Shown here: positions 9,026-55,439 of the stretch, piece by piece
Position numbering within the stretch: position 1 is the first letter of the stretch
Layout: each line of letters starts with the position of its first letter
Source of the DNA: Benincasa hispida
Taxonomy: Eukaryota; Streptophyta; Magnoliopsida; Cucurbitales; Cucurbitaceae
Length of the DNA: 64,000 nucleotides
Assembly: GCF_009727055.1 (NCBI RefSeq)
Contig: NC_052349.1
Coordinates: 36,113,109-36,177,108 of the forward strand
Direction: 5' to 3'
Position numbers and translations under genes: made by a program
Notes under the pieces: model-generated
What the model saw: the letters and a program-made list of their open reading frames with translations, nothing else
What the model was told of the DNA's origin: nothing
The model's database searches: none

Positions 9026-9033
9026 CATTCTTC

Positions 9034-12000: not shown

Positions 12001-14096
12001 TATGTGATTTTCGGCTCTAGCTATTTTTAGTTCTACCATTTTAATTTTGGTTAACATATATTGTGTACTGAAGATCAATAGCCTAAATCTGTCGTTTTTG
12101 GGGCTTGCCCTATGGTTTCCATTATAGGGAAAACATTCTTTACCTTGTCTGTGTCATTGTCCTCACCTGTTTTTGAATTTTATAGGTGAACTATGAAGCA
12201 AACGGTTGGGTGGCTCATCAAGTATCGGACATCTGGGCGAAAAGTTCTCCGGATCGAGGACAGGCTGTTTGGGCTTTATGGCCAATGGGTGGAGCATGGC
12301 TTTGTACCCACCTGTGGGAGCATTACACTTACACAATGGACAAAGTAAGTTCCTGCGTGCAATTGTATGGCTGTCTTTGTTCAGTGCTTAGTTTGAGCAC
12401 AGATGTTTTGTGGTACTGAAGTTGAGTATAGAACAGTGTTACTTCTAGAGAAAAATAAGTTACCTTCGTACTGCAAATTCAGTAAACTCACCTTTAATAA
12501 ATGGAAATTTCTGTTCATTATCTTATATAATTCAATCCACCTTCAGAATTTTTTAAAAAACAAGGCATATCCTCTGATGGAAGGATGCGCATCATTTCTG
12601 TTGGATTGGTTAATTAATGGCAAGGACGGATATTTGGAAACAAACCCATCAACATCCCCAGAGCACATGTTCATAGCTCCTGATGGTAAACCTGCTAGTG
12701 TGAGTTATTCAACAACAATGGATATTGCTATCATAAAGGAGGTTTTCTCATCCATCATATCTGCTGCAGAGGTGAAGCTTTTTTGCCATGCTCGTAAAAT
12801 GGAACTTTTTTACTTCATCTGCTCGATGTATTTGTTTATGTTTTCCAAAGTTTACATGTTTAATAGATTCTGGGAAAAAGCAAGGATACTTTTATCGACA
12901 AGGTCCGAAGGGCTCAAGCTAGGCTATTACCTTATAAGATAGCTAACGATGGTTCTCTTATGGAATGGGTATGTAAGTATCTCATCTCTTAACCAGGAGC
13001 ATTGAATTATCTAGACCGCCCTAACTCAACATTTCTTGTATTAGGCTCTTGACTTCGAGGACCGAGAAGTGCATCATCGACATGTATCGCACCTGTTTGG
13101 GCTGTATCCAGGGCACACCATAACTGTTGAGAAAACTCCCAACATTTCGGAAGCTGCAAACAATACTCTTCATAAAAGAGGTTTCTAATCGTCAACCAAC
13201 TTCTTGGGATTTCGTTCTACATTAGGCTTTATTAGACATAGCCACATAGGGATGAATCTTATTTAGAATCTGTTATATTTCTGACTAGCAACCAGTACTT
13301 TTTTTTATGTAATTATTTTGGTTTGTCTGTTAATAATTTGAAAGGATATAAGATAAACTTCATTTGACCACTGTGCTAAACAACAGTGCTTATAGACTTT
13401 CTCATGTGAAACAGGAGAGGAAGGTCCAGGATGGTCGACGGCATGGAAAATCGCTCTATGGGCTCGTCTTCAGAACAGCGAGCACGCATACCGGATGGTC
13501 AATCATTTGTTCGATCTCGTGGATCCAGATCATGAAAGTGATTATGAAGGGGGCCTATACAGCAATTTGTTCACTGCCCACCCCCCTTTCCAAATAGATG
13601 CCAACTTTGGGTAAGCTACATGGTTTACACATAGTGTATTCACTTTTTTTTTGTGCATGGAGGTTGCCAATGAAGTACATTTGTAAGCCAAATGAAACAA
13701 TAGTACTCTTTCTCTGGAAAATCTACAAGCAATCTAATCATATAGTTTTTTATGCTTCTTTTCTTGGGTGCTGCTGGCCTATCCAGATTCTCAGCTGCAA
13801 TTGCTGAAATGCTCGTCCAGAGCACCGTTAAGGATCTGTACTTGCTTCCTGCTCTTCCCCGCGATGTCTGGCCGTACGGTTGCGTTAAAGGATTGAAGGC
13901 GCGGGGTGGCTTGACAGTAAACATGTGCTGGACAGGAGGGGATCTTGATGAGGTCGGTCTTTGGTCGTCAGAACAAATTTCCCTTACAACATTACACTAC
14001 AGAGGGACTACAGTAGCAGCAAATTTATCATCTGGCAAAGTCTATACTTTCAATAGGCTGTTGAAATGTGTTAGAACATACTCTCAACCAAAATGA
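9034..14096 (+). CDS. FUC95A: Alpha-L-fucosidase 2 (GH95), 10 exons, intact
   Basis: Family role: glycoside hydrolase family 95 removes alpha-1,2-linked L-fucose from xyloglucan side chains in the apoplast (Arabidopsis AXY8/FUC95A). Exons from GT/AG junctions and frame: 9034-9298, 9953-10098, 10538-11403, 11702-11834, 12186-12344, 12547-12771, 12867-12968, 13045-13180, 13415-13610, 13787-14096. They join to 2538 nt, 845 codons plus TGA, close to the about 843 aa of the Arabidopsis protein. The start at 9034 adds a basic stretch then [15 protein letters not shown] (residues 15-29), which looks like a secretion signal; ATG 9121 in the same frame would omit it. The N-terminal domain opens with [20 protein letters not shown] (60-79). 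Catalytic-site equivalents: N432 and N434 in [11 protein letters not shown]562 in STSPEH, D739 in QIDANFG. No stop or frameshift interrupts it. It is the only intact host gene in the window. Confidence 0.95.
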
Positions 14097-15929: not shown

Positions 15930-17794
15930 CGAAGGAAGCTATGAAGGTCCTGAGTGAAAACATGGAGATCAGTCCCAATTTTAATTTTACGCAGAATATC
16001 AATTACATGCTAATTGAACAAGAAAAGAGAGAATTAGGGTTTCTAGAAAACTCTTACCTTTGAAGAACATTTTCTTGAACAAATCCAAATGGCCACTACC
16101 AAAAGTGTTTCCTCTGTATTTTCTAAGATGAGAATCTAAGAAATTGCATGGGCTCTTGAAATTTTGGAAGACAGGGAGATTGGGAGGAATTGATAAAAGA
16201 GAAAAACTAAAAAACAATTTCTTGCAGAGTTCTTTTTCAGAGAAAATTTCTTCTATTTAAACTCAACCAACCTCTATGCACTCTCACCCATACATGCACT
16301 AGGTACAGAGAAAAATGGGGAGTTACAACTCCCTCCCCAAAACATTTTAAAAAAATAAATTAAAATAATTTATTTTAATAAACTATTTAATATATATTTA
16401 TATGATAATCACTTTTATATTAAACTATATTTATATCAAATATAACATATAACCTATAGCTTAATATTGTATCAAATACAATATAACCTATAGTTTTAAA
16501 TTCTTTCATTAATAGTATTTAATATAAATCCCATTTATATTAAATTCAATTATATGAATCCAATTCATATAATTAATATTTGAATCATATTCAAATATTT
16601 ATTTCCTCTCAAATAAAATTTATATTATAATGTATCAAATACATTATATTAATTATATCATACATAATTAAATTAAATTAATTATATTACATATAATTAA
16701 TTCCCTCATTTAATTTGAATAATTCAAATTAATCCAAAATTGATTCTCATTAAACCCCGTTGAGCTATAGAGGGGACCTTTATGGACTTGTGGATTAAAG
16801 CTCCAATGATACTTGAATAATTAATTAAACTCCCCTTTAATCAATTTATTCAACATCCATTAACTGTCGGGTACTCCACTAAAGACCGAAAACTGCACTC
16901 TTCGTATTACAGATATATTTATGCGTCGATTGGATATAACCAATCAAAAGTACAATGACCCTTCACAAATTGCTCATAAGTACAACTAGGCCAAAATTAT
17001 CGATTTGCCCATGTAGTTACATCTAACTTTTTAAGTACTATTGATCTCTCTAATGAACAATAAGTCATAGTCCAACTATGACAAACCCTTCTCGGGCTAG
17101 GAGAGGTGTGACGTCACATTGTTCAAGCCTTGGAATCGCCCTTAAGGGAGCAATTTATCTACTTTCTCCGACGTCGAGGAATGAGTGAATTTTGTCTTGT
17201 ATAGCTGTGTTATCAGCTCCCTAATCAAACGAATCCCCAAAATGGTAGGCTTATTGAGTCAACGATCTGACCAATCTCACCCATACAAATCAAAGAACCA
17301 CCTTCATAAGCAGGAGTTCATAATTCACTCAAGATTCAGGTCATGTCACCTATGGTCATCCTGGTGAAATATAAGTCTCAATTATGAATGGCGCTATGTA
17401 ATGAGGCTAGTCATTTTGTGGTCCGGTCTTATACAACCTCCTTTATATAGAATATCCTCGCTCACATGTTACCACATGAATGATCAGGATTAAATCATTT
17501 GTAGCACTTTACAACAATTGTAACATCTACAAAGCAGGTCGTACTCAGAGTGTCACCAAGATAAGGTATCCAACCTTACCCATCTACTACAAACCATTTA
17601 GGTTATCACTTAAACATGATCCACCAGTATGTCTTTACATACATGTTTAAGCTACAGATGATAACCTTGGATGTTAGTTTATTGGTTTACGAGTTTAATG
17701 CTACTAAATGTCAAATAAAACATCTCATATTTTATTAAATAAATAAAATTACAAACTACAGGACTCTATGAGATTTAGGGCATTAACCCCAACA
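15930..17794 (-). mobile_element. Element 1, 3' LTR
   Basis: On the minus strand it runs TGTTGGGGTTAATGCCC... to ...CTTCG; the last base is changed from the usual CTTCA. Length is about 1865 bp. It aligns block by block with the split 5' LTR, for example GGGCTCTTGAAATTTTGG and CTTGCAGAGTTCTTTTTCAG near 16150-16240 and 35330-35420. The minus-strand segment AAGTGGAAGAT immediately before the LTR start is the polypurine tract. Confidence 0.85.
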
Positions 17795-20900: not shown

Positions 20901-21870
20901 ATCTTGAATAATCATTATAAAAGTGATGAAATATTCAAACCCTCCTCTTACTTTAACATTCATCAGACCATAAAGGTCTAAATGTACAAACTCTAAGGGT
21001 TCTTTGGCCCTATGACCTTTTCTAGCAAAAGATCTTTTAGTCATTTTGCCTTTAAGGCATGACTCACACACAGGTAAAGAATTTTCTTCTAACTCACTTA
21101 GAAGTCTATTCTTAATCAATCTCTCAATATTATTGAGATTGATGTGTCCTAACCTTAGGTGCCAAAGACAAGCATTTTTTTAAGGAGAAATTTTAAGTCT
21201 CTTATTTTGAGTTACCACAGTTTTAAACATTTTAGTGTCTAGGAGGGTTTTGGTTGGTAACGATCTTAGCACATATAAATTATTTTCTAGCTTAGCAGAA
21301 CAAACATCTATACTATTCTTGGAAATAAACAATTTATTTACAGAGAAATATACATAATAGTGTTGTTCAATCAAACACTTTATAGAAATGAAGTTCCTCT
21401 TTAGTTTAGGAACAACAAATACATTTTCTACGAAATATATCTATTATGTAAAGTAAGCCCGAGTCCTCCCATTACCACGGCTGAGACGACGTGTCCAATT
21501 CCAACACGCATCGTCATCTCCACAACTTCTAGTTGCCGCTAGGAACTAATTCCCTGAAATGAAGAATAAACATGGTTAGTGGTATCTGAATCAATTATCC
21601 AGGCTGAATCGTCATACTTCACTAAACAACTCTCCCATACAAGTAAATCACATTTACCTTTCTTGACCTTTTTCTTTTTTGCCAAGTATTTGGGACAGTT
21701 CCTCTTCCAATGTCCCTCATGGTTGTAATGGAAATAGATTCCTTTTGCAACCTTGGCCTTCTTGCCCTTCTGGGCAACAACTGGTGGGTTAGCTTTCCCA
21801 TTTCCACCTTTCTTCTTTTTCCACTTTTTGGTGTCAGAAGAAGAAGACACAGGCTTAGTTCTAGAGGATG
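17930..21870 (-). pseudogene. Element 1 pol: protease, integrase, reverse transcriptase, RNase H (broken)
   Basis: Copia order is visible on the minus strand. A zinc knuckle near 21700-21745 is damaged: both leading Cys of CX2CX4HX4C are Tyr (YFHYNHEGHWKRNC). The protease site near 21570-21600 reads DSDTTNH instead of DSGATNH. Integrase N-terminal remnants are at about 20883-21200 (CESCLKGKMTKRSF, then HLDLYG). Reverse transcriptase pieces are at about 19379-19924, including [11 protein letters not shown] and the catalytic YVDDIL near 19500. RNase H follows from about 19060 (IEAEYVAACEDAKEVVWL) and is split by an hAT MITE at 18173-18775. Several stops and frame changes separate the blocks, so no functional polyprotein is possible. 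Confidence 0.85.
18165..18783. mobile_element. hAT MITE with perfect 8-bp target-site duplication
   Basis: The element proper is 18173-18775 (603 bp). Its ends are TAGGGATGTTCA and TGAACACCCCTA, inverted repeats of the hAT type. GTTTTGAC flanks it on both sides (18165-18172 and 18776-18783), an exact 8-bp duplication diagnostic of hAT insertion. The subterminal regions are rich in AACCCAACCC / GGGTTGGGTT. It has no coding capacity. It interrupts the RNase H domain of element 1, so it inserted after that element. Confidence 0.9.
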
Positions 21871-21875
21871 ATTCC

Positions 21876-22514
21876 CTATGCCCCTTCCTTTTGTTCCTTG
21901 ATTTTCATCAAGGACTGTAAAGTCTGTAGCTCATTAAGCAAAGTGGTTAAGTTGTAGTCAATCCTATTCATAACAGCATTGCTACGAAACTGTAGAAAAC
22001 TTTCAGGCAAAGATTCCAAGATGAAGCTAGCCTGATTGGCCTTATTGATGATAGACACATTCATCTCCGTCACGTTGAAATGGACCATTATGTTGAGAAC
22101 ATGTTCTCTAATAGATGCCCCATTTTGTATATGAGCATTGAAGATATGTTTTAGAGCGTCATGTCTGGGTTGCGCGGATGGTTGCCCAAACATCCCCCGC
22201 AGAGACTCCATGATCTCACAGGCAGTGATTATCGACTCTTACTTCTCGGTCAAGCTTTTAGAAAAACTAGCTAAGATATACATTCAGGCCTTCTCATTTT
22301 CCCGTACCCAATGCTCATATGCCTCTCAAATGTTTCGAGTGGCATTTTGAGCTGGTACAGGAGAACAATCCTCCATTAGGACAAATCTAAGGTCATCAAT
22401 GATTAAAGTTGTGTTGATTGTGTCTTTCCATGTAGTATAATTTTCGTCAGTAAGTTTGTCGGCAGCGAGTAAGTTTAGTGTCACGGAAGTCATAATGTAA
22501 TTTGCTGAAACCAT
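21876..22514 (-). pseudogene. Element 1 gag (capsid), broken
   Basis: The minus strand encodes the Copia gag N-terminus (LTDENYTTWKDTI near the start, then EIMESLRGMFGQ, then a segment matching the gag of element 2 at 40024-40617). It is split into at least two open pieces (22514-22326 and 22211-21876) by a stop in the region between. It would form the virus-like particle shell if intact. Confidence 0.8.
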
Positions 22515-22935
22515 AAAATTTATTTATATTAGTATTATATGCATTAACCCATTTGCAAAAAACCAATCAAATTTAGCAAAATAATCTAATGCACCCTAAG
22601 TTACATCTATTTTGTAATGATGTTCAAGTGAGACAGAACAAAAGCCATCGTAGGATGATCAGATGCCTCTTCACTAAAATGAGACTATCTCAACCAATAG
22701 ACAGAACAATCCCTTATTACTGTAACTATCAGTCACCATTGTTTGGTCCATAAATTGTTAAACTCGCTTAACATTTTCTTGTAAATGTAATCCCTCATTT
22801 TAGATCCTAGAGTTCCGCCTCAATGAGCCAACTATAGGGAAAAACTGATTGGGGAAAAAACTAAAGCAACCCTATCCATTTCTGGAGTTTGAAGTAAAGA
22901 ATCATGCAAATGTCATCCATAGGAGGACACAAACA
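22515..22935 (-). other. Element 1 leader, gag-proximal part
   Basis: It is alignable in reverse with 39600-40020 of element 2, for example GCAACCCTATCCATTTCT and the run up to the gag start. It is non-coding and ends at the solo LTR insertion point AAACA. Confidence 0.75.
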
Positions 22936-27286: not shown

Positions 27287-28279
27287 CGTTTCACTCCCAC
27301 TTACTATAAACACTTTCTCTATTCACCTTGATATTAACCTATACAAACACCATCCGTAAGGGGACAAAAACAAAAGTGTCTCGAGGCCGAGTATAGATCT
27401 CATGGTGTGAACTTTTAGGAATAAATGTGAAAAAGTAAAATGAAGTATCATACACCTCATTTTCCTCCCACTGAGTGTTTTACCTACGGTTATTTAACTT
27501 AGGAAAATCTGGCCACTGATTTTTAACTAAGTGATTGTTTAAATTTGCCATAAGTAACACTTACTTTTGATAGTTAAACAACTTTGATTAATGTTTATTA
27601 AACACTTTAATAAACCACAATCAACCATTGCATGCTTGTAGCAAATCTCTCTAATTCACCTTTCTAGGTAAGTTCCCAGGTAGAAGTGTTACATATTCGT
27701 CAACTTAAATACTCTAGCCTAGATAGAATTGGACTTAGACAAAAGGTCCCTTATAGATACATTTGCTACAAATTTAATCTTTTAATCAAGTACCAATTTA
27801 ATCCTATTAAAATGATCAAAAGATTAAACTTAATTTCTAATCTTATTAAAAATGTGATCTTAGGTCTATATGAATCATATTCTAAAACTATTTAAAAAAT
27901 GATTTTAACCTAAGGTTTGCAAGCAATTCTAAATTATTGATTTTAATTTCTAATTTTATTTCATTATAACTTTTATAAAAATAAATGAAATAAATTAAAA
28001 CCATACAATTACATTCATTGACACATTTAGTAAAAATATAAAAATTATAAAATTACCCAAAGTAGTGTCATGCTTCATGCAATTCCATTTCATTACTAAC
28101 CATATATAACACTTATATAAATAAAGTAATGAAATAATTAATAACATACATCCATACATACATTCAACTATATATTATAACACTTATATAAATAAAGTAA
28201 TGAAATAATTAATAACATACATCCATACATACATTCAACTATATATTATAACACTTATAATATAAATGATGCATAGCTA
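27287..28279 (-). other. Element 1 leader, middle part
   Basis: Reverse counterpart of about 38560-39540 in element 2 (shared CTCGAGGCCGAG, ACTGAGTG and GTAGAAGTG-type blocks). It is non-coding and AT-rich toward the right end, where a 71-bp tandem duplication lies at 28100-28241. Confidence 0.7.
28100..28241. repeat. 71-bp tandem duplication in the element 1 leader
   Basis: Two nearly identical head-to-tail copies, each running from a TATATAACACTT-type start through ACATACATCCATACATACATT to CAACTA. Confidence 0.85.
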
Positions 28280-28665
28280 TACTAGAAGAAATTTGGGCTT
28301 TAATGTCGGTTGGAAAAAGTGAAATCGGATGTATAATGTCGTTTTTTTTTTAAAAAAAGAATCTTTAATGTCGGTTTTAAATCGACATTGAAGATGGGTT
28401 TTAATGTCGGTTTAAAACCGACATTAAAGTTGTAATGTTTTTTTTTATTTTATTAAATAATATGTCCCTAAATCCCTAATCCGCCGCCTCTTCAACTTGC
28501 ACTCCCCTCTTTTCACTCTCGTCATCGAAGAGACCACCGGCATATCCCCAAATCAAATCTTTCAAGCTGTCAAGTTATTAGGTAACCGAATCATCATTTT
28601 TCCTCTTCTTCATCTAGCTCTTTCGAATCGTCATTGTATTAATCTTCTATGGATGCGATATGCAG

Positions 28666-28908
28666 GTTCTAGAGTTAGCCGGAAATGCGGCGAGAGACAA
28701 CAAGAGAAACATGATCATTCCAAGACACGTTCTATTGGCGATTAGGAACGATGAAGAACTTGGAAAGTTGCTCGCTGGCATAACTATTGCTAGCGACGGC
28801 GTTCTTCCAAATATTAACTCGATTCTGTTGCCAAAAAAGATGGATAAGGCTACAAAAGAGCTAAAATCTCCATCGAAGGGTGTAAAGTCTCCGTCGAAGG
28901 TGGCTTGA
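28666..28908 (+). pseudogene. Captured exon 2 of histone H2A (H2A.W-like)
   Basis: An 80-codon open frame starts right after a splice acceptor (TATGCAG at 28659-28665) and ends with TGA. It begins [13 protein letters not shown], the point where plant H2A genes of this class are split by an intron, continues through [12 protein letters not shown] and [11 protein letters not shown], and ends in a basic tail with two SPSK motifs (KSPSK, KSPSK). SPKK-like tail motifs are characteristic of the heterochromatin variant H2A.W. The upstream exon, with the N-terminal tail and first half of the histone fold, is not found in the element. The frame is intact, but it cannot encode a full histone. Confidence 0.85.
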
Positions 28909-29070
28909 AGGTTGAATTGCAGAGTTAGGGTTGGATGAATATGTAATTTATGATCGTATTTTGGATGTCTCATTCCATCTTTTTTTTTTTTTGGTTTTTT
29001 TTTGGGTTGTAACTGTAGACGAAGAATTAGGGATTTGGGATGCAGGACTGTATTCGATATGGCTATTTTA

Positions 29071-29283
29071 CTAATTTACAAGCGAGGAATCCTCATCTTC
29101 TATAATTCTTTTGTCGATCAAATTTTCTACCGTAGGAAGGATATCATTAATAGCTCTCCAAACAAAGTGTTTTATTTTGAATCGGATATGAATATTCCAT
29201 TGAAGAGTATGATTTGGTATACATTCTTGATTTTTGATACCATCTACATCCATTATTGTTCTAATATTCACCTCTTTTATCAA
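29071..29283 (-). pseudogene. Fragment resembling the LINE zf-RVT domain
   Basis: An open minus frame contains KHFVWRAINDILPTVENLI, matching the usual pattern (K-F-WRA, then ILPT-NL) of the zinc-binding domain at the C-terminus of plant LINE reverse transcriptases. The downstream Cys residues expected in that domain are not seen. It lies between the H2A and XLG fragments. Confidence 0.55.
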
Positions 29284-29563
29284 AATGCCTTATTAATTTA
29301 GTCCCCCTAAGATCTTTCGACAGGCAAAGTGTCTCCCATTTGATCCAAGATCCCCACTGAAATCGCATTAAGATTTAATAATAAATTGTTTTGAGTTATT
29401 AAGCTTTGATATTTCCGAGCTCTTGCATCGATCAGTCAAGGTGAATCTTGTTACCTTGAGTTTTCCTCCTTTTCTTTTATTTTCAAGACGTAATTCTTGG
29501 TTATGCAATTAAACTTTCTAATCTATTTGACAAGAAGGACAAAAACCTTCAAAGATAATTACT

Positions 29564-30467
29564 CCTCATCTTAACATCGGTGGGCCTATTAAGGCAGATG
29601 CTAGCAATGGAAATACAAAGATTTTTATAAATGGCCAAGAAATTACAAAAGTAGAGCTTCGGATGCTACAAGTAAATTTTGTACCTGTAACCTTTGTCTC
29701 TAGCATAAACTTCTAAAGTTAAAAGGGAATATTTGATCGTTGTAGTTGGATGGAGTTCAATGCACTGGTAATCCACACTTTTGGGTCAATGAGGATGGAT
29801 CGTGCCAAGAGGAGGGTCAGAAGAACACCAAAGGGTACATATGGGGGAAGGTACTATCTTGTGCAAATAGACAGTTAATTTTGATTTTAGCTTACATATG
29901 TAGCTATAACTGGTCATATACTTGTTTTTAACTTCTTGATTATATTTTAGGCTGGAATGAAGCTTGTCTGTGCTTTGTTATCACTACTGGTTCCTTCTAA
30001 ATCTTCAACTTATTCTGGGGAACCAGACAATAACCTTGTTTATAGAACTTTTCCTGACTACCTTGCTCTTCAAAAGCTCCTTTTAGTTGGTTATGATGGA
30101 TCTGGGACAATTACTATATTCAAGCAGGTAGTCTCTAATTGGTCAATTGAGTATATGGTGCATCGTACCAATATCACTAGATAGTCTTTGGACAGTTCCA
30201 TTAGTGGTTATATTATGAGAAATGGTGCTCCATTTATTTTATCTCTTAGATAATGAAGTTGGCAATCTCATTTTCTAAATGCTTTTGCAGTCAAAATTCT
30301 ATATAAGGATGCACCTCTCTCTAAAGATGAACTTGAAATTATTAAGTTGAAGATCCAGATCAATGTGTACGGATATCTTGGTATAATTCTTGAAGGCCGT
30401 GAGCGATTTGAAGAGGACAGTTTGGCTGAAATAAGGAAAAAACTATCTGATGAAGTTGACCCTGCTG
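29564..30467 (+). pseudogene. Captured fragment of extra-large G protein (XLG), introns retained
   Basis: XLG proteins are plant G-alpha-like proteins with a long N-terminus. Four exon blocks are visible with GT/AG boundaries: about 29564-29671 (NGQEITKVELRMLQ), 29746-29850 (GNPHFWVNEDG then GYIWGK), 29951-30127 (MKLVCALLSL, ending LLLVGYDGSGTITIFKQ) and 30291-30467 (LEIIKLKIQINVYGYL, then LEGRERFEEDSLAEIRKKLSDEVDPAG). The third block carries the degenerate P-loop typical of XLGs, which lack the usual GKS. The introns show this was copied as genomic DNA. Upstream cysteine-rich and downstream Ras-like exons are absent. The third and fourth exons are both 177 nt and open. Confidence 0.85.
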
Positions 30468-31659
30468 GTAGGAGTTATGATTCTTGCCTCAAAATCTATT
30501 CAAGGCATTAGACAAGTTACTGTTCATGTGCTTGCTAGTTACCTTGAACATCAATTTTGGATAATGACTTAGGCTTTTTAGATTTAGCATTCCTGACCTG
30601 CTTGATTATAAAGAAAAGACCAACAATCTAGTAAATTTCCAAGGTGCAAATGGTTATATTTGTAGTTGGTTGAAGTAATATCATCGAGGCACTGGGTAAA
30701 TTTTTTTTATTTGTGCTATGTTCGTCATTTCTCCTATTAGTCTTGTTAGAGATAAGCCAGTGTACTTGTAGTGTTTACTAGTAGGTGTTGAATTGTTGGT
30801 TATCTATTTTATTTTAACTAGTCTATTTTTTTATTCTACATTTTGAGTGTAAAGTGTATGTACGTTGTGCTTGGTTAATGATCCCCTCAAGTTGAATATT
30901 CAAGCATTACCAATATCCCTATGAGCAATTGTCTTGGATATAAAATATTTTTAATTACACATGCCTTTCATCCTGATGTTTGTGTTTCTATTACCTTCTA
31001 TTTGATAGTCATTTGCATCTTCCCTTGTCTTGGTAAGACAACGTACTCATGCATCATTATTTGTTTTAAAAGATTTAAAGTCGATCTCTAGGTTTTTTTT
31101 TCTGTGGAAGAATTGAAGATGGTGTACATTGAAGATGGTGTAAAAGATTAAATCTTCAATGACAACCGATCTGCACAAGATGGTGGAGGTTGAGAACAAC
31201 TTGAAGGAGCTTTTGCAACAAAATCTAGGTATAGCTCATCAAATTATGTCTATGTCTGTAGCATAGGAAGTAGGCATTTTCCCCTTGGATTTAACATTTG
31301 CTCAGCCTTTTGTATTTGTATGTTCATGTTCTTGGGTCAAAAGAATTTTGCTGGTGTGGTGTTGAGAGTTCTGATTGTATTTGTTTGGTCAAAAGTAAAC
31401 TCTGCGTAAATCTAAATATGCCTCCGCCTCCCATGTTCACCAAGTTAGCTCATGTTCCATCTTTTGATTGAGTTTCATTTGACTTATTGAGTTTTAGTTC
31501 ATGAGTTGATTTCATTAACTAAGTATATTTTAGTTCACAAGTTATTGAGCTTACTTTTTGAGTTGAGTTTATGTGCTTGTGTGTTTATTAAATTCATTTA
31601 GTTTCATGAGTTTTGTTACTTATTGAGTCTTTGTCTAAAGTGTTAAATTAGAATTTGGT

Positions 31660-32427
31660 ATGGAGTTCTTTGGTTAGAGAAGGAAACCATTCTAAACATG
31701 TTTTCCATTGAAGAACAAATAAACCAACATCACGCCGGGAGTATCACTGAGAGTATTTATTCTGACAAACTTTTGGAGGCCTACCAGTGTCTGCTCTTCA
31801 AGTGAGGCCCTAAAAGCTTCTGTTGTTCCTCCAGTTCAAGCATTTTGTTTCTAGAGATGGTTTTTATCATTAAGAGCTAAGGTTTTAGGAACTATGGGGA
31901 GCATATTAAAGCTGTTGCCAAACATTTCATATTGTATTAGTACTGACTATGGTAAGCTTGGGATAAACGATACCGCTGCCATCCATCAAATCGTGAACAA
32001 ATTTAGTAAATTATCTTTAACGTTAGAGAGGTTGTCCCATGAATTTAATCTTATTGGAACAACTTTTATTGGAATGGACACCAAGAGTTCGAACATTATT
32101 TTAGCCCTTGCATTAAATTGCTCTCTGTTGGCCTTTTGTACTGGTTTTGCCTTTCATGTTCCAAACTTGGCTACAACTCTAATGACTGAAAATGTGGATG
32201 ATTTCAGAACTAAATCACATACAATACTCATTCAAAATCTGATTGGCAGGCTATGGTTGGTAGATGATGAAACAAGTAGAATGCTTCCACAACTTTTTGA
32301 AATCAATGGAGGACCGAATAACTGCTTGCATTTGGTTTCAAGAGGCAAAATATTAGATATGGGGTACGAAGTAAGAGGTATCTTGACTCTCTGTAGGTAT
32401 GTTGTTTTTGAGTTCATCCGTTTGTAA
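31660..32427 (+). pseudogene. Captured fragment, possibly Integrator complex subunit 7
   Basis: A 177-codon open frame (31894-32427) is the longest in the element. It reads as helical ARM-repeat-like protein: LTLERLSHEFNLIGTTFIGMD, then ALNCSLLAFCTGFAF, then LIQNLIGRLWLVDDE and LTLCRYV near the end. Upstream, 31660-31890 holds related-looking but stop-interrupted coding (REGNHSKHV, KLLEAYQCLLF in shifting frames). The pattern reminds me of the C-terminal part of the plant Integrator subunit 7 homologue (EMB1895), an RNA-processing factor, but I cannot verify this from memory. An ordinary ARM-repeat protein is the alternative. Confidence 0.45.
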
Positions 32428-32636
32428 AGCAAGTCAAACAGAGTTGATGAGGGGACATTTCTCTAGGTTATCGAGGATGGCATGTGGTTTTTATAGCAGT
32501 ATGGTAAGAACATGCAAAAACATCAGGTCTTCCAATTACTTATTTACTGCAAAGTTTTCTTGATCTTTGTTGCTTTTCGATTTTTCATAGAAATGTTGGA
32601 AGTTGGAGCTTATCCTACAAGTTATACGCTCGGTTT

Positions 32637-32720
32637 ATGCACATTCCCAATAAACACGGTTAGTTGAATATGAATTCTGATAACATTTTCACTTTCAATC
32701 CTTTGTCTTAAACCTTTTTT
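32637..32720. repeat. 84-bp direct repeat, copy 1
   Basis: From ATGCACATTCCCAATAAACA through TTTGTCTTAAACCT, repeated with few changes at 33487-33568 in the same CACTA element, about 850 bp apart. Confidence 0.85.
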
Positions 32721-32738
32721 GTCTGTGTATTTTTTTAG

Positions 32739-32808
32739 GTGTTTGGAAGGGGTGAGGAGGAGATGGATTTCTTGCAACAGCAAGGGATTCAGGTGAAAAT
32801 TGTTCCTG
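32739..32808 (+). pseudogene. Captured exon of uroporphyrinogen-III C-methyltransferase (UPM1)
   Basis: A 70-nt exon bounded by TTTTTTAG and GTAAGT reads VFGRGEEEMDFLQQQGIQV then KIVPG. This is the conserved FGRGxEE block of SAM-dependent uroporphyrin-III methyltransferases, which feed siroheme synthesis in plastids. One conserved Gly of FGRGGEE is Glu here. Neighbouring exons are not evident, so only a small genomic piece was captured. Confidence 0.75.
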
Positions 32809-33486
32809 GTAAGTGCATTTTTGAATGGTTACCATTTTAAGCATTGTTTTTAAGTGTTTTCAAGTGACTCTAATGATATGAAAATTCCTGTCTGGGAAGT
32901 TATAGTGTGCTTATTTCTCTTTGGACCATATTGGATTAGAATGTAATACCTGTTTATGACTCATGGGTACTATTTATTTGTAGTTTAGATTTGATTTAAG
33001 GTGCTCGTGTTTGTAGGTCGTATTATGGTAGTTTGTGGATTATTTATGCACTATGGTAGTCTTTGTGACAACTTTTGAGGTTTGAAGTATATTGTGAGCT
33101 AAATTTGCTTATTGATGTATGTGTTCTTGAATATTCATTTTTTGGGAATTCTGATAGTTCTGTTGAGAACAAGTGGTTGTGAAATATTTTTGGGAGTGTG
33201 TTTATTTGAATAGGTTGAAGGTAACTTTTTGGTTTTGTTGTGGTAGCATCGTTATGCTGTCGAAAATTTTCCATCGTCTTCGTATCTCATATCTAGGTAA
33301 TCAAGCTTCTCTTCTTTAAGAACTTGAAAAAGAATATTCTCTCATTTATTCAACTATTGAGTTTTCTTGTTTTGCAGATGCAACAAAGGAGTAAATATTT
33401 GGTATCGCAACCTCTTTATGCTTTTTCTTGGGGAACTTTAGATCCAACACATTCACTACAAGAATTTTGCCTTGAATGTACCATTT

Positions 33487-33568
33487 ATGCACATTCCCAA
33501 TAAACACGATTAGTTGAATATGAATTCTTATCATATTTTCACTTTCAATCTTTTGTCTTAAACCTCTT
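33487..33568. repeat. 84-bp direct repeat, copy 2
   Basis: Second copy of the segment at 32637-32720, with a handful of substitutions (for example AACACGATTAG for AACACGGTTAG). Confidence 0.85.
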
Positions 33569-34128
33569 TGTGATCCTTTGAACAATAGTGGTCAGACAAA
33601 GATGTCTATAACCAGATACTGCTGAGCTAGGGGGTTGGTTCAAAAAGAATTATGAAGGGATCCATATTTACCAAGTGGAGAGAGACAGTAATCTCATAAT
33701 GTTTGTAAAATCATAATGTTTGTATTACTTGTAATTTTTGTTTTCAAGGCCTGAATTATTGTACAGCCTTTTAAATTATAATTTTATAGCAGAATTTATG
33801 GATTAAATGTAATAGATTTACAATCCATACATGAATAATATGTCATAGCCACAACGTTCAATGATAATGTGTCATGTTATACTTTTTGACCAAAAAAATG
33901 GATTCGGCAACGGAATTTGAAGAGATTCGGGCTTCAATGTCGATTAATAATTAAAAAAAAAACAGAGGCTTTAATGTCGGTTGCAACTGACATTAAAGAC
34001 CATTAATGTCGGTTGGAAATTTCACTGAAGGTCTTTAATATCGATTGCAACTGACATTGAAGGCTGTGTTATTGAAGCCCTTTAATGTCGGTTTAAAACC
34101 GACATTAAAGCCCGGATTTCTTCTAGTG

Positions 34129-35050
34129 CTATGTTATTAATGCATGCAAACATATACTATAACACTTATATTATATGATGCATGAGCATACTATAAAATT
34201 AAATCGTGTAACTATATATTATAACATTTATAATATAAATGATGCATGAATAATCCATAACCTATGGTGGGATTTTACTATATGACATACATTATGACAT
34301 ATATTAATATACAAAATAAATCATATATCATATGCAGAATTTAAAAAAATTATTGGACCGAGATTGGACTCTTAAACTATTAATTAAACTAATATTACAA
34401 TCATATTAATTTAATTAAATAAAACAACTAATTATTACATAATTAATGGTCAACCGATTCAAAACAAGCGAACCGGGTCTTGAATTGCACAAACCGGACT
34501 GCCGAGCACTTGAACTGGCCATGAATCGCTCGAACCAAGCGAACTGGACATGAACCAGCCGAGCAACAAATCGAACACCGCGCGAATCGGTTTATTCTTT
34601 TTGTCTCAGAGCGTTGCAATGTTGTGACCTACCATTGCAACTTTACGGAAAGATCATCCCAATTCGCCTTTCGCAGCATTACAACGCTAGGGCACAGGCT
34701 TGTAGTGTTGTACAATCCACCTACTAGACAGACGCGATCTTCATCGAATTTTCTCCGATTTGGGCCTCGTTTTCTCCAGAATATCAACAGGAACAACTAC
34801 GAGCGACTCAATACATTTAAATACAGACTCTATTGCAAAATATGCCAAGAAAACAAAGAGCCTTTACAAACCAATTTGTAAAATAAACAATAAATCTATA
34901 TAGTCCAATCCCACAAACATCCAAAATTGAAAACTATCATTCAACAAAACATTCATCGCATGAATAAATTTTACAGAATGAACACCCACCAAAACTGTAA
35001 TTCAATTCTGAAAAAAAAAAGGGACCGAAAGCACACTCTAATACTAATTG
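34129..35050 (-). other. Element 1 leader, LTR-proximal part, with primer-binding site
   Basis: Resumes the leader right after the CACTA insertion and corresponds in reverse to 37526-38560 of element 2 only in part: 34440-34640 is instead GC-richer sequence with CGAACC / GAACCG runs. At 35037-35050 the minus strand reads ATTAGTATTAGAG just after the LTR end, a mutated form of the TGGTATCAGAGC initiator-Met-tRNA primer site. Confidence 0.7.
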
Positions 35051-35541: not shown

Positions 35542-37525
35542 TGTTAGGATTGATGCCCTAAATCTCGTAAGGTCCTATAGTTTGTTAACCTTGTATGAAC
35601 AAATATTTCTGTGATTAATAATATTTGATATTTTGTTTACTCTGTCTATGAAATATATGATATTTTAGTTGCATTAATCAGAAACAAATAAACTAACATC
35701 CAATTTTATCGTTGTAACTTAAACATGTACGTGAAGACATACAGATGGATCATGTTTAAGTGATAACCTAAATGGTCTGTAGTATATGGATAAGGCTGGG
35801 TACTTTATCATGGTGACAGTACGAGTATGACCCGCTTTGTAGGTGTTACAAATATTATAAAGTACTACAAATGATCTGATCCTGATCATTCATGTATTAG
35901 ACATGCGAATGGGGATATTCTACATAAAGGAGTTGGTATAAGACCGAACCACAAAATGTTTAGTCTCGTTATATAACGCTGTTCATAATAGACTTTCATT
36001 TCACTAGGATGACAATAGGTAACATGACACTAATCCTAAGGGAGTTGTGAACTCTTACCTATGAGGGCGGTTATTTGATTTTCATGGGTGAGAATGGCCA
36101 AATCGCCAACTCAATAAACCTACCATTTTGGGGAGTTGTCTGATTGGGGAGTTGGGAACTCAGCTACACAAGATGGAATTCACTCCTTCCCCGAAGCAGG
36201 GGTAAGTAGATAAATTGCTCCCTTAAGGGTTGATTCCGGGTCTTGAACAATGTGATGCCACACATTTCCTGGACCGAGAGGGGTTTAGTCATAGTGGGAC
36301 TATGATATATTGTTCATTAGAGGGGTCAATAGTACTTGAGAAGTTAGATGTAACTATAGGGACAAAACGGTAAATTGGCCTAGATGTACTTACGAGCAAT
36401 TTGTGAAGAGTCATCGTACTATTGATTGGCTATATCCAATGGACACAGAAATATATCTATAGTGTGAAGAGTGCAACTGTCGGTCTTTAATGGAGTGTCC
36501 GACAGTTAACGGATGGTGGATAAAGTAATTAAAGAGTTTAATTATTTATTCACGTATAGTTGGAGCTTCAAGCTACAGGTCTATAAGGTCCCCTTGGTAG
36601 CTCAAAGGATTTAGTTGAGAATCAATTTTTGGGTTAATTCGAAATGTTCAAATTAATATATGATATATTGAGATAATGTATATGATACATTATAGTTTAA
36701 TTGGAGGAACGAATATTTGAATATGATTCAAATATTTTTTCTATGAATGAGATTCATAATTGTTAACTTTAATATAAATATAATTTATATTAAATACCAT
36801 AAAATAGAGAAAAAAAACTATGGTTTATATATTATATATGATGCAATATTAAAACTATAGGTTATAAATATAATATGATAAATTGGTTATCATATTTATT
36901 TATAATAATTAATTATATTTGATAATTATCCATTTTTCTCTCTAACCACCTTAGTGGAAAGTTAAGTGATTTTATGGAAAAATGGGATAAATAAAATATG
37001 ATTTTATTATTCTCAATAACAAGTTACATGAACTGTGAACCTTCTACACGATTAGTTGAGAGCCTATGTGATAGAATCCTTTTACTACACGATTGGAGAG
37101 TTTATCTATGCAATAGAGATTTTCCTCCTTCATTCGTCTTCCTCCTCTAAACCACAAACTCTGTCTTAACCAAAATAGACAAAGCCCACCACTCCTAGGT
37201 TCTCACACCGAGAATACCAAGATAACTAAATGGTAGTGTCCTTTTTTTTTGTTCAAGTTTGGTTGTTGTTTGTTCGAGGAGAGTTCGTGCTTGTTCGACG
37301 CGTTCGTGAACGTACGAGGGATTTACTTGAAGAAGAGTTCTTAAAAGGTATAATCTCTTTTCTTCAAGTACAATCTCTAAACCCCTGGTTCTCATTCAAA
37401 AGCATGCTGTAATTTATGTTTTGATACATAATCTGTTTTGTTGACTATAAATGCTTGTTTCAATTGAAATGGGACTTGGACGATCCACTTTCACTCATAG
37501 GTTCTCAATAAAAAGAGTTCCTTCA
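35542..37525 (+). mobile_element. Element 2, 5' LTR
   Basis: 1984 bp, TGTTAGG...CCTTCA, aligning along its length with the inverse of 15930-17794. It includes the shared stretches around ATGATCCACC/GGATCATGTTTAAGTGATAACC and CCATTTTGGGGA. It is followed directly by a primer-binding site. Confidence 0.85.
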
Positions 37526-37543: not shown

Positions 37544-40023
37544 TTGTGTTCTGATTTCCAAATTCCATTTGTTGTATTGAATTTATTTACAATTTTAGTG
37601 GGTTTTAAGTTCTACATTGCGTTTAACTGTTAAATATCTGTGGATGGTTTGTTCATGGATAATTTCGGGATAATGATCTCTGTTTTGGCTTTCCTTTTAA
37701 TTTAAAAAGTTATTTTTTAAGGCCCTCTGCGTTTTTTAGCATAATTCTTGCAATCGAGTCTGTATTCTTTTAAGTTTTTGAGTCGTTCGTGAAGAAGCTT
37801 TAGATGCAAAGGTTGCAGTTTGTTTCGATGGAGAAAATGAAACGGTGGTCGCATCATGTAGCTTGAGCTAAACGATTGTTTAGATTTGGCTATGCGTTCA
37901 TGTAGAATTGTCTGCATGATCTAGTATCATCTGCTAAACGATCACATAGCTAATGCTATGCGATCATGTAAAGTGTTTACACTATCGTGTTATGTTGGTC
38001 GCATGATTGCGTAGGCGCTTGAGAGGTAAATGATCATGCGACATTTGATACTCGATGCAAGGCATGCGTGCTAAACGATTATGTAGACTATCATGCTCAT
38101 CGAATAGTCAGTAGCTACACGATCACATAGTATTTGATACTTGGCGCACGCTACTTGATCGTGTAGACTATCATGCTCATCGCATAGTCAGTAGCTACAT
38201 GATCGCATGGTATGCGCTACTCGACGCACGCTGCACGATCGAATGGACTTTCATGCTCATCGCATAGTCCAAAGCTACACGAAGGATTTGTTACACGATC
38301 AAGCTGCAAGACTTCAAGGCGAGCGGTTCAAGACCCGATTCACTTATTCTGAATCGGAGGACTCAAACTTTTGTAATTGTTTAGCCTTTACTTTTCGGTT
38401 TTGAGATTTACTATCCCGGTCCATCAACTTTGTTTAAATATGCATTTGATGTATGTTTATATTATATGTCATAATATATGTCATATAGTTTTAAAATCCT
38501 CCATAGGTTATGCATTTTATTTCATGCATCATTTTATATTATAAGTGTTATAATATATTAGCATGCATGATTTAAATTACTTAAAGCATACTCATGCATC
38601 ATATAATATAAGAGTTATAATATATGCATGCATTATAGCATATCCATGCATCATTTATATTATAAATTTTATAATATAAGGTTGTACGGTGGCATGAAAT
38701 GTATGCTATAGCTTAGTTCATTACTTGTTTATATAAAAGTTATATATTTGTAATGAATGAATATTGCATGAAGAATGATACTACCTAAGGTTTATTTATA
38801 AGTGTTATAAATACCTTATATATGTCTAGCTAGCAATGTTGAATGGTTTTAATTTTTTCATTTTTTATAAAAGTTATAATTAATGAAATTGGAATTAACA
38901 TCAATAATAAAGAGTTGCATGCAATTTAATCATTTTTTAGAAGTGTTGTAAAATTTGATTGAGATAGACTTAAGATCACATTTCTAATAAGATTAGAAAT
39001 CTAAGTTTAATCTTTTAAATCGGTTTAATAGGATTAAATTGATTCTAATAAAAGATTAAATATGTAACAAATGTATATGGACCTTTTGGCTAAGGCTAGT
39101 TCTTTCTAGGTTGGGGTACTTAAGTCGATGGACATGTCGCACCCCTACCTGGGAACCTACTTGAAATGATGAATTAGATAGATTTGTTACATGCATGCAA
39201 ATTTGATGAAAGTCTATTAAAGAGTTTAATAAGACTTGAATCAAAGTTGTTTAATCATCAAAAGCAAGTATTGTTTTTTAGCAAATTAAACAAATCACTT
39301 AGTTAAAATCAGTAGTCAAATTTTCTAAGTTAATGAACCCTAGGTAGAACACTCAGTGGGAGGTAAATGGGTATATGATACTTCACTTTACCTTTACACA
39401 TTTCTCCCTAAAAGTTCACACCGTGAGATCTATCCTCGGCCTCGAGGCACCTCTGGAATGTCCCCCTACGGGTGGCATTTAGGTAGGTCAATACCAAGGT
39501 GAATGGAGATAATGTTCATAGTAAGTGGGAGTGGGATGTGTGACAGCATATCCCTCGGTCTCTCTCATTAGTTTGGATAAAGTGTTTATGCATCGCCTCG
39601 TGGCATCGTGGGTGTCCCCCTAAAGGATGGCAGTTTTGCACAACTCTTTATTTGATCTCTAGAAATGGATAGGGTTGCTTTAGTCTTTTGTCCTAATCGG
39701 CTTTTCCCTAAGGTTGGCTCATTAGGGCGGGACTCTATGACCTAAAATAAGGGGTTACACTTACACAAAATTGTTAAGGATATTAACAAATTTTGGACCG
39801 AATAATGGTGACTATTAGATTAAACTATAAGGAGTTGTTTCTGTCTAATGGTTGAGGTTGTCTTATTTCAGTGAAGAGCCACTTGATCACCCTATGGTGA
39901 CTTTTGTCCTACCTCACTGAAGTATCATTGCAAAATAGATGTCACTTAGGGTACACTAGACTATTTTGCTAAAACTTAATTGGTTTTCTAAAAGTGGTTT
40001 AATGCAAGTAGACTTAATTAAGT
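37544..40023 (+). other. Long non-coding leader of element 2
   Basis: About 2.5 kb lie between the primer-binding site and gag, with no ORF of note. 37840-38330 is a cluster of CGATCG-type palindromic motifs. 38440-38700 is AT-rich with repeated TATAATAT / GCATGCAT words. 39340-39760 has GC-richer blocks that are conserved with the leader of element 1 and with 62290-62620. Confidence 0.75.
37840..38330 (+). repeat. Cluster of ACGATCGTGTAG-like short palindromes
   Basis: Dispersed, imperfect copies of a motif centred on CGATCG / CGATCA and flanked by CTA(A/C) and (T/G)TAG (for example GCTAAACGATTGTTTAG, TAAACGATCACATAG, ACTTGATCGTGTAG), every 20-40 bp. The same motif recurs at 44260-44520, 45950-46110, 55440-55580 and 60620-61320. 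Confidence 0.75.
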
Positions 40024-40617
40024 TTGTTCATTTTCCAGCAATTTAATTATAGCTACCGCTACACTTTCTTTTTTGTCGCCAATAAACTAACTGGCGAAAA
40101 TTACGCTATTTGGAAAAACACCATTAACACGATAATAATCATCGATGATCTAAGGTTCGTCCTTATGGAGAAGTGTCCTCCTATTCTACCTCCTACCGTT
40201 GCTCAAAACATTCGAAAAGCGTATGAGCGCTGGACACGAGTGAACAAAAAGTCCCTAGCATATATCTGGGCCAGCCTTAACGAAGTTTTGGTCAAGAAGC
40301 ATGAGCCCATGATCACTGCACACGAGATCATGGAGTCCCTGAGAGGAATGTTTGGACAACCATCCGTGCAGCTTAGGCACAACGCTCTAAAGTATATCTT
40401 CAATTCACGAATGAAGAAGGGAACATTCGTTAGGGAACATAGTCTCAATATGATGGTCCACTTCAACGTAGCGGAGATGAATGGGTCGAGCATCAATGAG
40501 GCCAGCCAGGTTAGCATAATTCTGGAGTCTTTACCAGAATGCTTCCTTCATTTCATTAGCAATGCTGTTCTGAACAGGGTTGACTACAACATTACAACTC
40601 TACTTAATAAGTTGTAA
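40024..40617 (+). CDS. Element 2 gag (Copia capsid), one open frame
   Basis: A 197-codon frame. Copia gag features include LTGENYAIWKNTI near residue 22, EIMESLRGMFGQ near residue 100, and EMNGSSINEASQV, matching the broken gag of element 1 on the opposite strand. The first about 20 residues (rich in F and Y) do not look like native gag, and the true start may have been lost. The frame stops just before the nucleocapsid part, which continues in another reading block, so the gene is probably not functional. Confidence 0.75.
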   Translation: MFIFQQFNYSYRYTFFFVANKLTGENYAIWKNTINTIIIIDDLRFVLMEKCPPILPPTVAQNIRKAYERWTRVNKKSLAYIWASLNEVLVKKHEPMITAHEIMESLRGMFGQPSVQLRHNALKYIFNSRMKKGTFVREHSLNMMVHFNVAEMNGSSINEASQVSIILESLPECFLHFISNAVLNRVDYNITTLLNKL

Positions 40618-41705
40618 ACTTTCCAATCTTTGCTGAAAAGCAAGGAGAAGAAGGTTGGTGAAGCAAATGTTGCTTCATCATCTAAAAAGTTCTATAAAGA
40701 TTCAACCTCTAGAACTAAGCCTGCATCTTCTTCCTCCAGCACTAGAAAGTGGAAGAAGAAGAAGGTGGTAAGAGGAAGGCGCCTACTAACCCACAACCTG
40801 CTGCTCTAAGAGGTAGGCAACCAGTGAGGGTTGTCAAGGGAAAATGTTTGCATTGCAACCAGAATGGGCACTGGAAGCGGAACTGCCCTAGATATTTGGC
40901 TGAGAAGAAGAAGACCAAATAAGGTAAATATGATTTACTAGTTTTGGAAACTTGTTTAGTGGAGAACGATGATTCTGCCTGAATTATTGACTCTGGGGCC
41001 ACTAACCACGTTTGTTCTTCATTTCAGGAAATTAGTTCCTGGCGGCAACTTGGTGCTGGTAAGATGACGATGCGAGTCAAAATCGGGCACGTCGTCTCAA
41101 CTGTGGCAGTGAGAGGTCTCAAGTTGACTTTAAAGAATAAATTTCTCATTCTGAATGATGTATATGTAGTTCCCGATTTAAAAAGGAACTTAATTTCTAT
41201 AAAGTCTTTGCTTGAATGTAAATATCGACTATTTTTCTCTATGAATAAAGTGTTTATTTCAAAGAATGATGTTGATATTTTTTTTGCACAACTGGAAAGT
41301 AAATTGTATGTGCTAAGGCCATTAGACGAATATCGTCCATAGCATAGAGATGTTTAAAACTGTCGTAAGTCAAAATAAAAGACTTAAAATTTCTCCTAAA
41401 GAAAATGCCAACTTTGGCACCTAAGGTTAGGACACATTAATCTCAATAGGATTGAGAGGTTGATGAAGAATGGACTTTTAAATGAGTTAGAAGAAAATTC
41501 TTTACCTGTATGTGAGTCATGCCTTGAAGGCAAAATGATTAAAAGGTGTTTTACTGGAAAAGGTCATAGAGCCAAATAGCCTTTAGTGCTAGTGCATTTA
41601 GACCTTTATGGTCCGATCAATGTAAGAGCCAGAGGAGGTTATGAATATTTCATCACTTTCACTGATGATTATTCAAGATATGGATACGTTTATTTAATGC
41701 AACAT
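40618..41705 (+). pseudogene. Element 2 pol 5' part: zinc knuckle, protease, start of integrase (truncated)
   Basis: The zinc knuckle near 40848-40890 is intact (CLHCNQNGHWKRNC, CX2CX4HX4C). The protease motif DSGATNHVC at about 40990-41016 is intact, but a TGA replaces the Trp codon just before it. Further blocks are an open stretch 41064-41342 with VYVVPDLKRNLIS, and integrase sequence with CESCLEGKM and HLDLYGPINVRARGGYEYF at about 41500-41690. The block ends abruptly near 41705 at a junction with Gypsy sequence. Reverse transcriptase and RNase H are missing. Confidence 0.8.
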
Positions 41706-44905: not shown

Positions 44906-47900
44906 GCATGAACTCTCCCTCATTCCCAAAACGTTATGCTCTAATACCAACTTGTCACACCCTTTCCCGGTTTACCCTCTAAAATCGAAAGAGGATATGA
45001 CAGCAGCAGTTACCGACCTAGGTGCCAGCACTTAGTGCCTAACTTAAGAGAACTGCTTAAACCTGAATATGCAAATGACTTGGCAAAACGCATCCATGAA
45101 ATTAAACAGTGCAAGTCTTAATTACAGTTCCAAAAACAAACATATGTCCAACGAAATACGATGACCAAAATAAATATGTGTCCCAAAAGAAAATAAGTTT
45201 CACAAGTCTCCGTCTCTTTTCCAAATGTGTGTACATCAAACCAAGCTTAACTTAAGCTTCTTTCTAAGGTCACCAAACTTTGGGTGGCAAGTTGCAATGG
45301 ATTTAACCACTAGGGAACTGTCCTCTACCTGGGAAAAAAGAAACGTTTGAAAACTGTGAGCTGGTTGCCCAGTGAGTGACACTTAAAAATGCATTTTTTC
45401 ACAAACCTTTCATATGCTTTAATGTAGAATAAATTCAAGGAAATTGGATTCGAGATTTCTATGAGGAGCGAAAGAATGATTATTCCAAAACACAATCATG
45501 AATGAACATTACATTTACAATCATACAGAAATTATAGCATGAAAGTTACAAATGCACAAAAGGAAAAATCGTACGGGCAGAGGCGTCTCCACACTCCGTT
45601 ACGCACGAACGCTCGAACAACAGCTACCTCAAACGCTTGATCTACATGATCGCAATACCGCAACGAATACAGCACGAACACTTCATGCTCATCCACAACG
45701 ATCACCTCGGTCACGAACTCCTCAGTAATAAGAATGACCTCCACAGCACCATGAACGGTCTCCACAGAACCTTGACGGTGTCGAGTTGAGTATGACACCA
45801 CCAACAAGGCTACTTTGGTATTCTCGGTGTGAGAATCCAGAGGGTGAGCTCTGTTCGGACTTGGTATGAGGCAGATGAAGAAGGAAGCATTGATCGTGTA
45901 CACGACTTGGCAAGTGGGAGATGGCGAAAACCTATCATATAGATCGATGCCCAATCTTTTAGATAAAGCTAAGTGATCATCTAGCAAAAGCTATGTGATC
46001 GTTTAGCTCGGTCTATCGCCTACAGACTCTACACGATCGTTTACTTTGGACAAGCGATCTTCTAGTAAAACTATGCGATCGTTTACCTCACCCAGGCGTT
46101 GTTTAGTAAATCTGTATTTACTTGACGACTCCGTGAGTTTCTTTTACACGAGAGAGAAAACTAAAAATACGAAAAACTTTTCACCAGTTTGTAAATCATT
46201 TTTTTTAAAATAGGAAAACCACTTTCCTTTTAAACTTATGGTTACCATGAATCCAATAACCACCCACTCATTTGGTTATTAAAGAAAAAGAATTAATTAT
46301 CCAATAATTAATATTATTATAAATATAAATGATAACCAACTTATCATACTATATTTATAACCTATAGTTTAATATTTCATATCATGAAACATATAAACCA
46401 TAGTTCTTTTTCTATTCCATTGTGCTTAATGTAAATCTCATTTACATCAATCCTCCACTAGATGTATCTCATACATCATACCAATTATATCATATATAAC
46501 CAAAATACCTCTTGTCAATTTGAACATTTCAAATCAACACCAAGAACTGATCCTCAACTGAATCCATTCAGCTACCAAGGGGACCTTATGGACCTATAGC
46601 TCGAAGCTCCAACGATACGTGAATAACTGACTAAAACTCTCTAGTCACGGGATCCACCATCTGTTAACTGCCAGGCACTCTACTAAAGACCGACAGCTGA
46701 ACTCTCCTACAGATATATTATGTGTCCATCTTAACCAATCAGTAGTGCAATAACCCTTCACAGATCGCTCGTAAGTACAGCTAAACTAATAACCGTTATG
46801 CCCTTGTAGTTACATCTGTCTTCTTAAGTACCACTGATAACTCTAATGAACATAAGTCATAGTCCTACTTTGACTGAGTCTTCTCTTCCAAAGAGAAGTT
46901 GTGGCCACTATGTTCAAGCCCCGAAATCAGCCCTTAAGGGAGCAATCTCTCTACTTTTCCCTACTTCGGAAAAGAAGTGAATTCCATCTTGTAAATTGAG
47001 TTCCCAGCTCCCAGATCAGACAAGTCCCCAAAAAGGTAGGCATGTTGATTGGCAATCTGACCACTCTCACCCATATAATCAAAGGACCGCCCTCAAAGGC
47101 AGGAGTTCCCAAAACACTCAAGATTGAGGTCATGTCACCTATGGTCGTTTAGGTGAGATGTAAGTCTCTAGTATCAATGGCGTGATATAGAAAGTCTAGT
47201 CATCTCGTGGTCCAGGTCTTTGTATAGGACACTTCCGCTCGCACGCCTCCACATGAGTGGTCAGGATTTACTATCTGTAGGAGTTTACAACACTTGTAAA
47301 TCTCTACAAAGCGGACCATATCCATAGTGTCACCAGGATCAGGTATCCCACCTTAATCCTTATACTACAGACCTATTTAGGTTATCACTTAAGTCTTGAT
47401 CCACTTGTATATCACATATACATACTTAATTTCACATAAGATAACCAAGGAGTTTTGTTTATTGGATATAAGTAAATGCCATAATTAAATAACACTTATT
47501 TTATTCATTAAACAATGTGTATCTTTACAGAACAACGAGACTCCAGGAGAATTAGGACACTAATCCCAACATAAATAACATGTTGGAAAATAAACTCAAG
47601 CAACTTGCATAGTGTTACACATTAACCATAGCGTTATAACAATCATGCTACCAAACCTTAGTTGAGAACGAGCATTCATAGCTCAAGCTTCCAAAGTCCA
47701 TTCATGGCCATGAGACCCATACTTCGGTCCCATAAAGAACTACCTACGTGTACGTGGAGTATACTAAGTACCGTCGACACCTTAAGTACTTCCTCAGATA
47801 CCTTCTATACCTTCGATACCCGGTATATTAGAAACATACATTCATGAAAGATTCGAGCATCATAAGTTTTAGGCTTAGCACTTACTTAGCTTTCACCCTA

Positions 47901-55332: not shown

Positions 55333-55439
55333 TGAAGGAACTCATTTTAAAGAGATCCTTGAGCGGAAGCAGATCGTCCATATTCCATTTTGATTGAAAA
55401 ACAAATTTACACTGAATATACAAGATATGCATTCTTAAA

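Follow-up and report, generated by a model that had tools for sequence, protein, structure and literature searches.

A 64,000-bp stretch of the wax gourd (Benincasa hispida) genome (contig NC_052349.1, positions 36,113,109 to 36,177,108 of the forward strand; called the window here, and numbered from its first base) contains an element of 5,849 bp with exact coordinates at 28280-34128. It is concluded, with a probability of about 0.93, that this element is a non-autonomous CACTA transposon, which would have been moved in trans and carries a scrap of a LINE as well as exon-intron pieces from four unrelated nuclear genes or more, a fifth being probable. An initial annotation, made from the sequence alone, had proposed a Pack-CACTA element with pieces of at least three, probably four, unrelated host genes. 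The evidence now supports this interpretation more strongly than claimed, as the piece of INTS7 is clear, a piece of an AAA-ATPase-associated domain is probable and a paralogue of the target was found that is free of the insert.

Ends and classification of the element

The element is flanked by the target-site duplication CTA on the left (28277-28279) and on the right (34129-34131). The left terminal inverted repeat (28280-28316, plus strand) begins with TACTAGAAGAAATTTGGGCTTTAATGTCGG... and the right one (34092-34128) reads CACTAGAAGAAATCCGGGCTTTAATGTCGG... on the minus strand. The right end is an exact CACTAGAAGAAA, and in the left end a T replaces the first C. The arms span 36 bp and are 89% complementary. 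Their core of 31 bp has two mismatches between the arms, a score that one of 2000 pairs of random 60-mers drawn from the window also attained. The motif CACTANAAGAAA alone, with one mismatch allowed, occurred at five sites in the window compared with 3.42 expected and was therefore no rarer than chance; the evidential weight lies in the matched pair of ends and not in this motif.

Both element ends also contain subterminal repeats (TGTCGGTT). When up to one mismatch was allowed, TTAATGTCGGTT was found at 12 sites in the 64 kb (0.41 expected), nine of which lie within the two element ends, and none of 100 shuffles reached 12 sites. On the left, TTAATGTCGGTT and its inverted copies occupy 28300-28429, and the right subterminal repeats occupy 33936-34110. 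The CACTA-type inverted ends, the 3-bp duplication and the subterminal direct and inverted repeats place the element in the CACTA (En/Spm) superfamily. Helitrons make no duplication and have TC...CTRR ends, and Pack-MULEs are flanked by a duplication of about 9 bp; the element has a 3-bp CTA duplication and CACTA ends instead.

In six-frame Pfam scans of the element, no transposase family was identified at E ≤ 1, although a short transposase remnant could have been missed, because the same scans also missed the XLG, INTS7 and UPM1 pieces described below. With no recognisable transposase inside and with fragments of host protein-coding genes, the element fits the Pack-CACTAs. The inverted ends with CTA on both sides, the subterminal repeats and the absence of a transposase had all been noticed in the initial annotation and are confirmed here.

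Another CACTA-like element seems to end at 1238-1505 of the window, where an apparent right end (CACTAGTACAAACTTGG on the minus strand) is accompanied by TGTCGGTT/TGTCAGTT repeats; no left end was recognised there.

Host gene pieces within the element

The histone piece is the last exon of an H2A.W-type gene (28666-28908, plus strand) with its acceptor AG kept, and an ATG at 28660 starts an open frame that runs through to its stop. It matched Pfam family PF16211 (E 1.3e-14) and, among solved structures, 'Probable histone H2A.7' (E 2.6e-29, 56/78 residues). Chains of H2A.W outranked those of H2A.X and canonical H2A, with the exception of 5z23, which was the top match on two overlapping stretches. 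Upstream of this exon, 28476-28574 on the plus strand probably derives from an AAA-ATPase-associated domain (PF14363, AAA_assoc; E 7.4e-5). Its score of 23.5 bits when scanned alone is under the curated cut-off of 26.4 bits, and the whole-frame scan (E 0.011) likewise stayed under it. Judged from this domain match, the piece probably represents a fifth host gene, which is additional to the initial annotation. A match to FragX_IP in the longer frame holding the AAA piece (E 0.009) was unsupported.

An open frame on the minus strand at 29071-29289 contains a LINE-like reverse-transcriptase zinc-binding piece (zf-RVT, E 1.8e-6), which scored 28.9 bits against a cut-off of 27.5 and, in the whole-frame scan, 24.5 bits, which is under this cut-off. 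This LINE-like fragment lies on the minus strand, whereas all host gene pieces have the plus orientation reported for them.

Extra-large G protein 1 (XLG1) is represented by four exons, which follow on the plus strand at 29534-29671, 29746-29850, 29951-30127 and 30291-30467 (exons a to d). Exon a has kept its donor GT but shows no AG at the start assigned to it, and exons b, c and d have kept both AG and GT; when spliced at these edges, exon d does not continue the frame of exon c. A protein search with the XLG pieces, in which the query also contained 81 residues of the wax gourd protein LOC120079078 (P0003, see below), yielded 586 proteins at E ≤ 0.001, and relatives were taken from the best 120 of these. 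Among these 120, the top XLG match was an XLG 1-like protein of Cucumis melo (E 3.3e-109), and the closest relatives, XLG 1-like proteins of cucurbits, agreed over the aligned part at 91% (Cucumis melo) and 87% (Cucurbita moschata).

The INTS7 coding piece (31668-32493, plus strand) corresponds to residues 634-904 of the wax gourd protein LOC120081531 (P0002, 1111 aa). About 87 codons are then missing through an internal deletion, and residues 992-1000 follow at 32503-32529 (plus strand), a match with E 0.048 when searched alone against the 6.3-kb region, so that its placement rests on the order of the pieces too. Besides this deletion, the INTS7 piece contains a frameshift near 31790 and three in-frame stops. 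A protein search found 25 proteins, of which LOC120081531 was the top match (E 3e-106), with 252 of 268 residues identical between the window and the full-length protein. Therefore INTS7, which had been called merely possible, is now clear. Against solved structures, the INTS7 piece gave no matches at E ≤ 1.

A single exon of UPM1 (uroporphyrinogen-III C-methyltransferase) is located at 32739-32808 on the plus strand and has kept AG and GT. It matched the proteins of melon, cucumber and Cucurbita pepo in 23 of 24 residues. In a pooled search including this very short exon, 112 of the 114 matches carry PF00590, with weak E values of 0.03-0.65; the other two were P0003 (LOC120079078) and a protein named P0147. 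Taken together, the H2A, XLG and UPM1 exons of the initial annotation are all borne out.

Two further candidate exons were unsupported. For a PPR exon at 32497-32667, PPR_2 matched with E 0.009, but 32587-32667, scanned in that frame, gave nothing at E ≤ 10. A coding-looking exon near 33626-33720 matched no Pfam family at E ≤ 10, and its letters, which were included in the pooled query, drew none but P0003, P0147 and the PF00590 proteins.

Insertion into a tandem repeat

In an empty-site test, the element flanks were joined with a single CTA and aligned within the same window. On the minus strand at 38413-39425, about 4 kb from the element, the target repeat has a paralogous copy that carries no insertion. 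The joined flanks aligned across the junction to 38709-38581 of the minus strand with 80.6% over 134 columns, and longer joined flanks aligned to 38744-38413 (77.7%, 350 columns) and to 39425-38522 (76%, 958 columns), again on the minus strand. Both longer alignments crossed the junction without gaps at that point, and did so in two registers, the local repeat being a tandem array of 71-bp units. With such a paralogue of the target nearby, the element is an insertion into a repeat rather than part of a cluster of genes.

The common strand of all host gene pieces could otherwise have pointed to a segmental duplication or to a cluster of adjoining host genes, whose CACTA-like ends would be due to chance. 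However, INTS7 is present only as residues 634-904 and 992-1000 of 1111 and UPM1 as residues 209-232 of 372, and such inner parts are a poor fit to a genuine gene cluster. As the CTA on both sides, the matched ends and the insert-free target also argue against it, this explanation has next to no likelihood. A genuine contiguous gene cluster was one of the findings that, according to the initial annotation, would overturn its proposal.

Coding potential of the gene pieces

The GT donors are kept in all four XLG exons and in the UPM1 exon, and the AG acceptors in three of the four XLG exons, in UPM1 and in H2A, which argues against retroposition. The mostly kept splice edges, together with the open H2A frame and the existence of a gene model elsewhere (LOC120079078) that joins INTS7 to the UPM1 exon, would also suit an element that serves as a working vehicle for a transcribed and translated chimeric gene. 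Such a role is highly improbable in view of the frameshift, stops and deletion in INTS7, the out-of-frame XLG exon d and a stop in the window in the frame that LOC120079078 uses across the UPM1 exon. Because the frames are broken, a functional chimeric protein appears unlikely from the sequence. Most likely the gene pieces would be decaying passengers, which yield no protein and contribute, at most, to aberrant spliced transcripts.

A related chimeric locus, LOC120079078

The second-best INTS7 match was LOC120079078, a B. hispida protein of 593 aa, which is itself chimeric. Its start resembles P0147 (55/98 residues), a protein with PF03108, a MuDR-type family, and continues into INTS7 residues 547 to about 1030. 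Its N-terminus was also considered as XLG; it had no match to XLG and matched P0147 instead. After the INTS7 part, LOC120079078 has 24 residues that match window 32738-32809 (20/24), where the UPM1 exon is read in a frame other than that of UPM1; this frame hits a stop in the window. The last 11 residues match a stretch 3' of the UPM1 exon (33147-33179, plus strand; 10/11 residues, E 0.024 alone). The stops and the deletion in INTS7 of the window are missing from LOC120079078, and LOC120079078 and LOC120081531 are located on different contigs. In the INTS7 alignment, the window has five residues in common with the two Benincasa proteins that occur in none of the seven other aligned sequences, at one of these five columns only five of the seven others having a letter. 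These residues point to wax gourd or a close relative as the most likely host.

Since LOC120079078 shares the INTS7-UPM1 junction, this junction is not private to the element and must have formed earlier than the insertion or independently of it. By its composition, LOC120079078 is perhaps a transposon-born chimera. Alternatively, some of the pieces could have been joined beforehand in a rearranged locus that also gave rise to LOC120079078 as a copy; the block would later have been flanked by CACTA ends and mobilised in one step, instead of its genes being captured singly. This origin is doubtful but deserves consideration. In its favour, LOC120079078 has the junction together with a different, PF03108-related N-terminus and without XLG; against it, the H2A and XLG1 pieces within the same ends are left unaccounted for. 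It has also been considered that the family seeded an exon-shuffled gene, in which case LOC120079078 would be transcribed as a PF03108-related start joined to the INTS7 C-terminal half and a reframed UPM1 exon, the element in the window would be its decayed relative, and the product or RNA could interfere with INTS7; this scenario is improbable.

Origin of the element

For the preferred interpretation, a CACTA element with captured gene pieces, the element would be moved by a transposase that acts in trans and is encoded elsewhere. Capture would occur at the DNA level, when related elements insert locally and are mobilised jointly from their outermost ends, while the inner ends are lost. Neighbouring related elements have been described that are mobilised together by their outer ends and carry the intervening DNA along (PMC8903248). 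Within the element, an 86-bp direct repeat is present at 32634-32719 and 33484-33569 (both plus strand; copies 93% alike), and four bases ahead of the second copy lies a site (33454-33479, plus strand) that may be what is left of a left terminal repeat inside the element. The direct repeat and the terminal-repeat-like site fit a fusion of related elements, and are taken as a hint only. Serial capture, in whatever order, is plausible.

Relatives of the donors were seen at the protein level for INTS7 in Benincasa, for XLG1 and UPM1 in other cucurbits and for H2A among solved structures.

Several observations weigh against this interpretation. The score of the putative remnant was reached in 7 of 300 shuffles for the left repeat, in 74 of 300 for the right repeat and in 34 of 100 in a first test. 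INTS7 is the sole donor seen in Benincasa itself. Since the target consists of tandem units, the empty site can be placed in more than one register. LOC120079078 is at most a candidate CACTA sibling, because its N-terminus is related to PF03108 and lacks XLG. Furthermore, the INTS7 piece of the window is closer to LOC120081531 (252/268) than to LOC120079078 (243/273), and over 268 columns one residue groups the window with LOC120079078 and none supports each alternative grouping, so the INTS7 sequence alone lends little support to grouping these two.

Comparison with known elements

The capture of several genes by CACTA elements is already known from soybean Tgm-Express1 and from maize Pack-CACTAs. 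Tgm-Express1 of the soybean wp allele is a 5.7-kb CACTA element that contains exon and intron sequence from five unrelated host genes; it is inserted in intron 2 of an F3H gene and gives spliced chimeric transcripts from the host promoter (PMC1947982). It resembles the wax gourd element in its superfamily, its similar size and its pieces of several unrelated genes, but differs in its host and genes and in lying in the F3H intron with transcripts, whereas the wax gourd element is inserted in a repeat and is known from DNA only. In maize, Pack-TYPE elements frequently combine DNA from several loci, and Pack-CACTAs do so most of all (PMC8903248). The Pack-CACTAs of Arabidopsis and maize share the CACTA ends and host coding DNA from several loci with the wax gourd element, but belong to a different lineage (PMC8903248). 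In gene transduction by the maize retroelement Bs1, one mobile element likewise contains several host gene pieces (PMC13317346); in contrast, the wax gourd element has DNA-transposon ends and has largely kept exon-intron structure and splice edges.

Among the papers listed in searches of an open-licence library, no cucurbit report of such CACTA capture and nothing on LOC120079078 was found. The initial annotation had suggested that this combination of genes in one CACTA may be undescribed; a search of the library for the combination listed nothing relevant, and multi-gene capture as such is known. The element provides a clean gourd example of a CACTA pooling exons of unrelated genes, with an insert-free paralogue of the target nearby and part of the fusion recurring at another annotated locus. 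The order of capture becomes testable within a single genome. LOC120079078 and other annotated genes of its kind may turn out to be transposon-born chimeras.

Other features of the window

A multi-exon glycoside hydrolase family 95 gene, presumably encoding an alpha-L-fucosidase, is located at 8917-14096 on the plus strand, and four of its frames match Pfam GH65N/GH95 domains. Inverted repeats that are 73-88% alike lie at 20920-22725 (minus strand) and 39820-41659 (plus strand). The plus-strand copy contains copia-type gag and Pol_BBD domains, and the frame tested in the minus-strand copy had no Pfam match at 0.01. A tandem repeat with 26- and 28-bp steps at 3616-4066 is open in several minus-strand frames, and minisatellite-like repeats with a 37-bp step occur at 54459-55359, 58439-58719 and 63034-63981. 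A dispersed repeat has at least five copies in the window (16495-17749, 46558-47213, 49757-51007, 57376-58230 and, inverted, 35614-36606), whose pieces are 62-93% alike among the matches listed.

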